In this document: in pieces, positions 61,864 to 64,000 of the stretch
Position numbering within the stretch: the first letter of the stretch is position 1
How the letters are laid out: the number at the start of each line of letters is the position of its first letter
NCBI RefSeq assembly: GCF_025699485.1
Contig: NZ_JANUXN010000002.1
Location: 434,001-498,000, forward strand
Length of the DNA stretch: 64,000 nucleotides
Source: Thauera carbonicopians
Lineage (GTDB): Bacteria > Pseudomonadota > Gammaproteobacteria > Burkholderiales > Rhodocyclaceae
Reading direction: 5' to 3'
Made by a program: the position numbers and the translations under genes
The notes under the pieces: generated by a model
What the model was told of the DNA's origin: nothing
The model's database searches: none
The model's input: only the letters and a program-made list of their open reading frames with translations

Positions 61864-62169
61864 TCAATCCTCCGGCACGTAGATCATCCGCCCGTCGTCG
61901 AGTCGGTAGGTGATGCCCGCGCGCGAGCCTTGTCCCTCGCCCATTTCGCCGCTGGATTCGTAGCGCGTCAGTTCCTGGCCCTCCTTGATGGTGATGCGCA
62001 TGTCGGCGTCGCCCGGATTCTCGACCACCACCACCCGGTTCTGGGTGAAGGGGTTGAGCGGGTTCTGGGCAATGACCACCATCAGCGTGCCGATGATGAC
62101 GAGGAACAGGTCGATCAGGTTGACGACCGACAGCATCGGGTCGTTGTCGTCTTCGTCGAGGAAGCGCAT
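61864..62169 (-). CDS. DUF2149 membrane protein (HmuU/ExbD-like partner)
   Basis: 101 aa. Short acidic cytosolic N-terminus (MRFLDEDDNDPML), one membrane helix (VNLIDLFLVIIGTLMVVIAQ) with an Asp at its start, and a small periplasmic domain (NPGDADMRITIKEGQELTRY). The layout is that of ExbD/TolR/MotB-like subunits, in which a helix-borne Asp takes part in proton conduction. The ATG overlaps the ExbB-like gene stop (TGATG). A much longer in-frame extension upstream is antisense or shadow sequence and is discarded. Third in the CobN-like/ExbB-like/DUF2149 order. Confidence 0.85.
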   Translation of the reverse strand: MRFLDEDDNDPMLSVVNLIDLFLVIIGTLMVVIAQNPLNPFTQNRVVVVENPGDADMRITIKEGQELTRYESSGEMGEGQGSRAGITYRLDDGRMIYVPED

Positions 62170-62672
62170 CAGCCTAGTGCCTCCCGTTGTCGTTCCAGTT
62201 CGCGCAGGTCCTGCAGCAGCCAGCGCCGGCGGATGCTGAGGATGAAGAAGCAGATGCTGGCGGCCAGCAGCGCCAGGATCACTGCGGAAAAGGCCGCCAC
62301 CATGTTGCGGCCCACCTCCGCCGCATTGCCGCTGCCCAGCGCCAGCAGCGCCGGGCCCATCGGGATCATGGTGGCGATCAGGCCGAGCATCGGTGCGGTG
62401 CGCGAGACGATGCGCAGCCATTCCAGCCGCTTCATGATCCACAGTTCCAGGTCGTCGCTGGCCATCGGCGCCTGTCCGGTCGTGCCTTGCCGGGCGTGGA
62501 TGAACAGTGCTTTCGGGTGGGTGTTGCTGTTGCGCTGCCAGGCTTCGACGGCAAAGGCGCCGAGCATCACCAGCGCGTAGGCCAGGGCGATGCCGATCAG
62601 CAGCATCACCGGCGCGAGGAAGAGGCGCGAGACGTCGTAGAGCAGGGTTTCGATTGCGGCAAATGCGGTCAT
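62169..62672 (-). CDS. MotA/TolQ/ExbB proton channel family protein
   Basis: 167 aa ExbB/TolQ-like membrane protein with three predicted helices (FLAPVMLLIGIALAYALVML; AAFSAVILALLAASICFFIL) and the family pattern VSRTAPMLGLIATMIPMGPA. GAGGA before the ATG at 62672; the upstream CobN-like gene stops six bases earlier. Shorter than TolQ (230) but similar to HmuT-type partners. Probably forms a proton-driven complex with the DUF2149 protein and the membrane-anchored chelatase. Confidence 0.88.
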   Translation of the reverse strand: MTAFAAIETLLYDVSRLFLAPVMLLIGIALAYALVMLGAFAVEAWQRNSNTHPKALFIHARQGTTGQAPMASDDLELWIMKRLEWLRIVSRTAPMLGLIATMIPMGPALLALGSGNAAEVGRNMVAAFSAVILALLAASICFFILSIRRRWLLQDLRELERQREALG

Positions 62673-62678
62673 GTTTCC

Positions 62679-64000
62679 TCAGGGAAGGGTTTCGTTCTTG
62701 CGGGTGTCGATGAGCTGCCGCAGCGCGCCGGCGCAGATCAGCAGCAGCATCAGGGCCAGCACCCAGTGCTGGCGCGAGTCGTGCTGCGGGGGTGGTTCGA
62801 CCGGTTCCAGCACCTGGCCTTGCACGCTTTCGGGTGCTGCTTCGGCGCTCTCCGGGACGGGCTGTTCGGCAGCAGTGGCTGAGGCTGTATCCGGGGCAGG
62901 CGTGGCGCTCAAGCCAAAGCCCTGGGCCATATCGGTCTGGGCCATGTCGGCCTGGGCCATGTCCGGCCGAGCCATCTCGGCGATGAAGCGCCGGGTCTTC
63001 GCGGCACCGGTGTTCACGTCGAACTGCTGCTCGAGTTCCTGCCAGCGCCGGGCCAGCGCCCGCCTTGTGTCTTCGGATGCGTTCCAGTAGCCCTTGCGGA
63101 TCGCCTCGGCCATGCGTTCCAGCATCTGCGCCTGGGCGGTCGGGTTGTGCTGCTCGAACCATTGACGCGTGCCGAGTCCGCGGCTGTCCGTCACATAGGT
63201 GTCGAACATCGCCTGCCACTGGTCGTCGCGCACGGTGGACGCATCCATCGCCTGCCAGCCGAACAGGTTGTTGGTGGCGTTCAGTACCTGCAGCGTGCCG
63301 GCGTAGCCTTCGTGCTGCATCGCTGCGATCCACTGCGGATTGAGATAGCGTGTCCGCAGCTCGTCGGCGAGGAAGCGGGACAGCCCGGCGGTGCGCACCT
63401 CGCTGCTGCGCAGGTCGGAAATCAGCAACTGGGGCGCACTGCCGTCCAGGTGCCGGATGGCCGCCGACAGTCCGCCGAGGAACTCGAAGGGATGGTCGGT
63501 GGAGAGCACGCCGTGCAGGTTCGACGAGCGCGACATCACCGCGAGCTGGGTGCCGCGCAATTGTTCGGCGAGCAGATTGCCTTGCGCCGCCACCGTACCC
63601 CAGCCCTGGCTGCCGTAGGCGTGGCGGCTGCTGGAGAGGAATTGCTCGGCCAGTGCGGCATCGTCGTCCCATTCGGTCGATGCCAGCGCCAGGTGCGGCA
63701 CGCCGGTGCCGTATTCACCCGGGGCATTGCCGAAGATACGGTAGCGGGCAGCCGCGATGGCCTCGTCGGCGCTCATGCCCTGTTGGTGCAGCGCGGCGGC
63801 GATGCGGCGGTTGTTGGCGGCGATCGGATTGTCGACTTCGTCCAGTTCAGCCAGGCGGGTCAGGGCGTCGTCGAGCAGGCGCATGAAGCCGTCGAACTGG
63901 TCGCGATAGACGCCGGTGACCTGCACCACCACGTCGCTGCGCGGCCGGCCCAGTTCCGCGGCGGGAATGATCTCCAGCGCGGTGACGCGGCCGCCGGCAT
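62679..64000 (-). CDS. CobN-like chelatase subunit with C-terminal membrane anchor (5' end outside window)
   Basis: C-terminal 440 or so residues of a CobN/BchH-superfamily chelatase large subunit. The frame is open to the window end. Visible family motifs: RVTALEIIPAAELGRPRSDV, then VVQVTGVYRDQFDGFMRLLD, YGTGVPHLALASTEWDDD and MSRSSNLHGVLSTDHPFEFL. After the chelatase domain comes a Pro/Glu-rich spacer with three DMAQ repeats, then one membrane helix (HWVLALMLLLICAGALRQLI) and a short cytosolic end. Cobalamin-synthesis CobN lacks this anchor. Followed by ExbB-like and DUF2149 genes, as for HmuS of Bacteroidetes haem-uptake operons. Confidence 0.88.
   Translation of the reverse strand, partial: AGGRVTALEIIPAAELGRPRSDVVVQVTGVYRDQFDGFMRLLDDALTRLAELDEVDNPIAANNRRIAAALHQQGMSADEAIAAARYRIFGNAPGEYGTGVPHLALASTEWDDDAALAEQFLSSSRHAYGSQGWGTVAAQGNLLAEQLRGTQLAVMSRSSNLHGVLSTDHPFEFLGGLSAAIRHLDGSAPQLLISDLRSSEVRTAGLSRFLADELRTRYLNPQWIAAMQHEGYAGTLQVLNATNNLFGWQAMDASTVRDDQWQAMFDTYVTDSRGLGTRQWFEQHNPTAQAQMLERMAEAIRKGYWNASEDTRRALARRWQELEQQFDVNTGAAKTRRFIAEMARPDMAQADMAQTDMAQGFGLSATPAPDTASATAAEQPVPESAEAAPESVQGQVLEPVEPPPQHDSRQHWVLALMLLLICAGALRQLIDTRKNETLP
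62922..62966 (-). repeat. Three in-frame 15-bp tandem repeats in the CobN-like gene
   Basis: Units CTGGGCCATATCGGT, CTGGGCCATGTCGGC and CTGGGCCATGTCCGG follow each other on the plus strand and encode the DMAQ-based five-residue repeat in the linker between the chelatase domain and the membrane helix. Being in frame, slippage would change linker length without breaking the gene. Confidence 0.8.

Follow-up and report, generated by a model that had tools for sequence, protein, structure and literature searches.

Introduction

In the cytoplasm, class I chelatases have a CobN/ChlH subunit that is driven by AAA+ ATPases. The periplasm is without ATP, and a periplasmic protein such as TonB or TolA is powered there by the proton-motive force, through its own membrane helix, by an ExbB-like channel with a one-helix acidic partner. 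Here we describe a locus of Thauera carbonicopians with genes for a CobN-like protein, an ExbB-like protein and a DUF2149 protein. All three are present on the minus strand at 61864–64000 of a stretch of 64,000 nucleotides (contig NZ_JANUXN010000002.1, positions 434,001 to 498,000), called the window here. They very probably belong to an operon for zinc starvation, predicted to be under Zur control, of which they are the distal end. We propose, at a probability of about 0.5, that the CobN-like protein works in the periplasm as an HmuS-like de-chelatase that has been adapted to a redox-inert metal and would strip zinc from an imported chelate. The window genome (4.5 Mb) was open to search, and the region upstream of the window was read on; coordinates above 64000 continue the window numbering along the same contig.

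The closest systems are described in papers that are represented here by excerpts of their text. In Bacteroidota, hmu operons carry CobN, ExbB-like and DUF2149 genes (PMC10434189). In HmuS, His-538 is essential for activity, and His-1209 with Glu-1212 stands opposite; a second haem is held by Met-79 and His-254, a site that the authors connect with reduction. A Met-rich insertion may feed haem, and the enzyme is NADH-dependent (PMC12583661). The BtuS family of CobN-like proteins, a name that PMC6460266 credits to Rodionov 2003, resembles the window protein in being made of non-biosynthetic, exported, membrane-attached CobN homologues; it differs in that the excerpts of this paper deal with haem in B. 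fragilis and make no tie to zinc. In P. aeruginosa, PA1922–PA1925 are annotated as a TonB receptor, a CobN-like protein, a protein of the “ExbD” proton channel family and a DUF2149 protein (PMC9431628). Their promoter is shifted by Zur, and a znuA mutant has the four genes up 147-, 122-, 45- and 56-fold, respectively (PMC4542158, PMC8531726).

Results and Discussion

When the contig was read on upstream, the three genes were found to end a run in the order zur, palindrome, zigA, rpmJ2, TonB-dependent receptor, CobN-like, ExbB-like and DUF2149 gene (Table 1). The operon start lies outside the window, approximately 8 kb upstream of the operon end. The receptor stop overlaps the CobN-like start, the ExbB-like gene starts six bases past the CobN-like stop, and the DUF2149 gene and the ExbB-like stop have one base in common. 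A sequence-only reading of the window had named the three proteins, the first with a C-terminal membrane helix, and had considered a TonB-dependent receptor just beyond the window possible. The set is borne out by PF02514, PF01618 and PF09919 and by the hydropathy of the helix (best 17-residue Kyte–Doolittle mean 2.18), and the receptor gene stands directly upstream of the CobN-like gene. The COG0523 gene upstream reaches 143 of 332 bits with the CobW model and passes the ZigA model. The locus shares with PA1922–PA1925 the four annotations and their order, as well as Zur control, which is predicted here, and differs in that its run also includes zur, zigA and rpmJ2. The gene set and relatives from Pseudomonas and Stutzerimonas suggest that PA1923 is kin to the CobN-like protein.

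Zinc control of the operon, predicted from matches to a Zur-type site, is well supported, with zur, zigA, the type-B L36 gene and a perfect palindrome standing in one run. The regulator read as zur scores 82.7 bits, under the NCBIfam Zur cut-off of 167. The perfect 18-base-pair palindrome between zigA and zur, GTTATGTTATAACATAAC, has no other match in the genome with up to three mismatches, except one overlapping shifted one; a control pattern gave 0.

For comparison, a species-genome collection was scanned with short CobN-like stretches. Of 121 confirmed relatives the best 80 (L071–L150) were kept; these are the near ones, and all fall in one clade, called the zinc type here. A second group, the f-type, comprises 32 loci in all, made up of DUF2149-bearing relatives from two genome searches and the second paralogue of the window genome. 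The site scan covered 500 bases ahead of the operon and 150 inside it, and the palindrome was scored out of 18. A score of at least 13 was seen in 57 of the 80 zinc-type relatives and of at least 14 in 50, which, the rows being one clade, are not 80 independent events. Fifty dinucleotide shuffles gave a mean of 0.8 (maximum 3) and 0.0, respectively. Among the 23 relatives without an upstream site, five have one of at least 15 within 4.5 kb, L084 has one of 14 and L149 one of 13. No site of at least 13 was found upstream of the 32 f-type loci, a contrast weakened by the 16 loci without a recognised receptor, which were tested just ahead of CobN, where true promoters were possibly missed; the 16 with a receptor also gave none. 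Over whole loci, L031 (14) and L037 (13) are the sole f-type loci with at least 13, both at least 6 kb from the operon start, and 61 of the 80 zinc-type loci have at least 14. Sites of 14 or 15 also occur in Stutzerimonas and Halopseudomonas. A 2022 review, as excerpted, regards Zur control of PA1922 as apparently peculiar to P. aeruginosa within Pseudomonas, from a search of 150 base pairs upstream (PMC10393844); these sites argue against that restriction. Zinc control is further complicated by the znuA locus of the window genome, which is without the operon palindrome (best 11/18) and has another Fur-family gene alongside, so that the genome may have two zinc regulators. This locus (L218; G000 contig 43, 121500–129500) carries a ZnuA gene (PF01297, 294 bits), transporter-like frames read by eye and the separate Fur-family gene.

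The gene set itself is widely kept. CobN–ExbB–DUF2149 is found in 77 of the 80 relatives and receptor–CobN–ExbB–DUF2149 in the same order in 72, so the set is not there by chance. Of the eight exceptions, L085, L133, L138 and L146 run into contig ends, and in L098, L099, L130 and L145 no receptor was recognised by likeness to that of the window genome. In L098, however, the frame ahead of CobN encodes a different type of receptor (PF00593, 116.5 bits), whose family was seen in 5 loci. ZigA-like genes lie near 12 of the 80 relatives versus none of the 32 f-type loci. Neighbour clustering over 81 loci, which mixes in antisense frames and in which families were read by eye, gave as zinc-related recurrent neighbours a ZigA-like family in 14 and a DksA-like family (name read from the sequence) in 4; further families (among them, by eye, SDR, LysR and ABC types) have no evident tie to zinc. 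Nine neighbours of f-type loci were scanned and gave no clue to the f-type metal. The zinc-type receptors were also searched for a mark of haem receptors, a His that lies between two boxes, FRAP and NPNL: of 75 looked at, 59 had both boxes, and 57 of these had no such His. We did not use this test, in which the three Bacteroidota receptors and the contig-16 receptor did not fit the pattern.

The recurrent receptor bears on the direction of the reaction. Chelatases of the superfamily insert metals in biosynthesis, and sequence cannot tell direction, so the protein could load zinc on a tetrapyrrole used as a carrier, as in zincophore making. Coupling to an outer-membrane receptor in 72 of 80 relatives points inward, and a reading of the recurrent neighbours by eye, not by profile, turned up no exporter family. 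We regard insertion as very improbable.

The active site was compared with that of HmuS in an alignment of 119 proteins. It holds 82 zinc-type rows, among which those of fewer than 1100 residues are left out and T. linaloolentis stands twice (L059, L072). The equivalents of HmuS His-538, Glu-577 and Ser-1199 are each present in 82/82. The first of these is His546 of the CobN-like protein (HLGTHG), the His of the HFG(T/A)HG motif that is common to the whole superfamily. His-1209 corresponds to His1047 (81/82, with L123 the exception) and Glu-1212 to Glu1050 (81/82). The literal HmuS motif LSLDHxxEFMGG does not occur; the CobN-like protein has LSTDHPFEFLGG. A His at the 1209 position is absent from all 28 biosynthetic CobN rows, which mostly have Asp or Ala, and is present in 1 of 29 f-type rows, the other 28 having Asp; none of the 29 has a His at the 254 position. 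By alignment, the zinc type and HmuS have in common active-site residues that are absent from the contig-16 paralogue of the same genome.

The likeness to HmuS extends to the whole system: in both cases a class I chelatase is exported and anchored (here by prediction), its partners are an ExbB-like and a DUF2149 protein, and a TonB receptor goes with them. Sets of the hmu type, with CobN, ExbB-like and DUF2149 genes, were also seen in B. finegoldii and on Aureibacter plasmids. One could read the locus as a haem (iron) system with an HmuS-type haem de-chelatase in a betaproteobacterium, since HmuS is the closest solved relative by sequence, the partners are those of hmu operons, and the His/Glu pair and His-254 are held in common. 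The differences from hmu make this improbable. Control is of the Zur type and the neighbours belong to zinc starvation, not iron. The Met-79 equivalent is Pro in 80 of 82 rows, in head-domain columns that are less sure, as Aureibacter HmuS is also aligned without Met-79. The Met-rich insertion is missing, with residues 719–773 facing HmuS 711–933. The two active-site His are separated by 501 residues here, 7 of them Met, whereas two HmuS proteins have 567 (20 Met) and 751 (21 Met) at this place; the insertion varies, and B. finegoldii HmuS is 104 residues shorter than the B. theta numbering. No hmuY or hmuT gene is in the operon, where just 6 bases separate the CobN-like and ExbB-like genes and rpmJ2 and zigA precede the receptor. 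The zinc type and HmuS also stand on separate branches of the tree. The tie to haem or cobalamin suggested by the sequence-only reading is not supported, given the zinc-starvation surroundings, the loss of Met-79 and the missing insertion.

That reading had also set the protein apart from biosynthetic CobN as a membrane-anchored homologue, and here it stands. With TIGR02257, the model for biosynthetic CobN, the CobN-like protein scores 518.5 bits, under the cut-off of 822; the CobN on contig 10 of the same genome scores 1607.7. A quick LG+G4 tree with 66 rows, for which CobN and BchH together served as the root, separates these two (value 99) from the 53 rows of the anchored type, which comprise the zinc type, the f-type and HmuS; the zinc type is a single clade (100) outside biosynthetic CobN. 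The f-type row nearest to the zinc type is L034, which is also the sole f-type row with a His at the 1209 position. Upstream of the CobN-like gene, approximately 9 kb were read, and no cobS, cobT or other cobalamin-synthesis gene, which would have spoken for biosynthesis, was identified there. A B12 riboswitch, for which a search had been advised, was not found at the locus; its only match in the genome is on contig 10, with the true cobN. The biosynthetic cobaltochelatase was rejected on the TIGR02257 score, the locus, the tree and the C-terminal anchor. Magnesium chelatase was rejected as well (TIGR02025, 546.3 bits, under the cut-off of 829; no bch gene was identified at the locus). Biosynthetic CobN and BchH/ChlH resemble the protein in fold and have the same invariant His in the HFG(T/A)HG-type motif, and they differ in having AAA+ partners and in their side of the tree.

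Cobalt could still be the metal, if under zinc starvation it were removed from, or put into, an imported corrinoid and replaced zinc in enzymes. Cobalt relieves zinc starvation of P. aeruginosa (PMC13083405), a Zur-controlled importer of cobalt-pyochelin is known (PMC11481552), and the superfamily includes cobaltochelatase. The enzyme that works on corrin, biosynthetic CobN, never has a His at the second active-site position (0/28), and the true CobN with its riboswitch lies elsewhere in the genome. We give this corrinoid salvage a slim chance.

The CobN-like protein is predicted to be exported and membrane-anchored. It starts with a signal-peptide-like stretch, and a strict rule for such starts is passed by the window protein and 62 of 78 full-length relatives versus none of 5 biosynthetic controls (4 CobN, 1 BchH). 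By simple hydropathy rules, the C-terminal helix, whose absence from close relatives would have told against an anchor, is present in 75 of these 78 versus 0 of 21 biosynthetic CobN. The linker that joins the CobN body to the helix contains a three-fold DMAQ repeat. Among proteins of solved structure, the best sequence match is HmuS 9d26 (3.1e-120), followed by CobN and ChlH.

In the ExbB-like protein, Thr101 is kept in 116 of 117 aligned rows. The DUF2149 protein has one predicted helix, which contains Asp20; of 105 aligned rows, 104 have this in-membrane Asp, and the exception is Glu in Runella. For this protein Pfam gave DUF2149 only, and a model was of low confidence (predicted local distance difference test, pLDDT, 62.4), too weak to search. 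By analogy, from the in-membrane Asp and the gene position, it would be an ExbD/TolR-like partner. Homology suggests that the ExbB-like and DUF2149 proteins couple the chelatase to the proton-motive force.

The proposed mechanism is as follows. When zinc is short, Zur would let go of the operon. The receptor would import a metal chelate, most likely a zinc tetrapyrrole such as zinc porphyrin, to the periplasm, where the anchored HmuS-like protein would bind it between His546 and His1047 and free Zn(II). The freed ion would then cross the inner membrane by way of an importer; a ZnuA is encoded in the genome. The ExbB-like and DUF2149 proteins would form a proton-driven motor that acts on the chelatase through its C-terminal helix, which would take the place that the membrane helix of TonB or TolA has, and the motor would stand in for the ATP-driven AAA+ subunits of cytoplasmic chelatases. 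Zn(II) is redox-inert and would thus require no reduction step; that the haem ligand Met-79 has been lost agrees with this. We infer the chemistry of zinc release and the substrate from the sequences, and that zinc is released both from a tetrapyrrole and by a proton motor is put forward only tentatively, as somewhat doubtful. Among the matches listed, in open-licence literature represented by excerpts, none joined a Zur operon with HmuS or proposed zinc de-chelation.

The same motor would serve an alternative in which the receptor imports ionic zinc or cobalt, energised by the ExbB-like and DUF2149 proteins, and the CobN-like protein is a metal-binding relay that a cobalt system left behind. 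A similar view has been published for PA1922–PA1925, as a suspected importer of non-chelated zinc (PMC10393844, PMC8456098); the guess of one preprint is that it was once a cobalt system (PMC11761036), and cobalt can substitute for zinc (PMC11481552, PMC13083405). We hold it to be rather unlikely. It leaves a 1300-residue chelatase with a nearly invariant macrocycle cavity without a job, and the anchored CobN-like protein is the operon's only candidate for a TonB-like third motor partner (tonB genes were not sought genome-wide).

Several observations count against the zinc de-chelatase. The NCBIfam model “cobaltochelatase CobN” (NF004644) is passed by the protein with 1688 bits (cut-off 1248), and also by the contig-16 paralogue (1576.4 bits). 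That paralogue, which is without the shared His, likewise matches HmuS best (3.5e-133), so that having HmuS as the top match is not in itself a mark of the zinc type. Nor does the fold of a model choose between CobN and HmuS: a Telmatospirillum protein, 78% identical to the window protein in the tree alignment, was modeled (pLDDT 83.7, predicted template-modeling score 0.83) and gave template-modeling scores of 0.79 to M. tuberculosis CobN 7c6o, 0.77 to HmuS 9d26 and 0.68 to ChlH. Since the zinc type and HmuS are not sisters in the tree, their common residues may come from convergence. A His at the 1209 position also occurs in 8 of 13 BchH rows (one row being a misread frame) and thus is not a mark of de-chelatases alone. 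The His-254 equivalent is kept in 78 of 82 zinc-type rows, which makes the redox argument only half-fitting. A looser rule for signal-peptide-like starts (70/78) was not used, as it also passes the genome's own biosynthetic CobN (1.68 vs 1.6). The DUF2149 protein is likened to ExbD by its in-membrane Asp and gene position, and its model is of low confidence. The substrate may be another chelate rather than a tetrapyrrole. In B. fragilis, a btuS1 btuS2 double mutant still converted haem to protoporphyrin, according to the excerpts of PMC6460266.

Table 1. Features of the operon and its surroundings in window numbering (cut-offs in brackets).
Feature	Position	Strand	Evidence and remarks
HEAT-repeat/DNA_alkylation-type protein, 370 residues	60677–61789	+	PF08713 23.1 bits; converges with the operon
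DUF2149 protein, 101 residues	61864–62169	-	PF09919 97.1 bits (27.1)
ExbB/TolQ/MotA-like protein, 167 residues	62169–62672	-	PF01618 31.9 bits (22.9)
CobN/HmuS-like protein, C-terminal third in window	62679–64000	-	PF02514 978 bits (24.5); gene stop at 62679, other end at 66632, 1317 residues
DMAQ repeat, three-fold	62922–62963		in the linker of the CobN-like protein
Codons His1047 to Glu1050	63483–63494	-	within LSTDHPFEFLGG; HmuS His-1209/Glu-1212 equivalents
TonB-dependent receptor gene	66630–68617		beyond window, same operon
rpmJ2 (type-B L36)	68667–68816		beyond window; NCBIfam 92 bits (70)
zigA	68930–70144		beyond window; NCBIfam 697 bits (600)
Zur-type palindrome, 18 base pairs	70220–70237		beyond window
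zur	70318–70713		beyond window; best solved relatives 7dh7 and E. coli Zur 4mtd

Past zur, the opposite strand has frames for a malate synthase and an MFS protein, and there is also a ModE-type regulator. The window protein matches that of Telmatospirillum, an alphaproteobacterium, at 76%, that of T. linaloolentis at 75% and that of a metagenome-assembled genome of the Rhodocyclaceae at 77% (L071, L072 and L084, respectively). A DUF2149 match is present in four other genomes of the same genus, of which G295 alone carries the zinc type. As an alphaproteobacterium is equally near and the zinc type is so restricted among these genomes, horizontal transfer is likely. L145, a cyanobacterial metagenome-assembled genome named Kaiparowitsia implicata, closely resembles Bosea L098 in gene order, lengths and protein ends, and its contig is probably a contamination.

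A second anchored CobN-like module lies in the same genome (L006 7954–17740; G000 contig 16, 40953–50739). It consists of a receptor, a CobN-like protein, a second receptor-like gene, a bPH-domain protein, an ExbB-like protein and a DUF2149 protein, with a Fur-box-like site of 14/19 upstream of the first receptor (permuted control 11). In its CobN-like protein, the positions of HmuS His-1209 and His-254 are taken by Asp and Val, respectively. On the Runella slithyformis plasmid pRUNSL01 (L152 1–12315), CobN-like, ExbB and DUF2149 genes and a TonB receptor accompany a urease accessory protein among hypF, hypC, hypD and hypE; this locus is possibly a nickel version of the same chassis.

Conclusion

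The same chassis would serve for iron in Hmu, for zinc in the window operon and perhaps for nickel on the Runella plasmid, with the regulator, the receptor and a few residues setting the metal. A Zur-controlled gene set that is known from P. aeruginosa, and is found in full in 72 of 80 relatives, would thereby gain a concrete enzyme activity that can be tested, and tetrapyrroles that carry zinc would be a candidate source of this metal for bacteria. The proposal predicts a class I chelatase that is run by a proton motor instead of ATP. If it is true, a proton-driven periplasmic zinc de-chelatase would be a zinc-scavenging machine of an undescribed kind.

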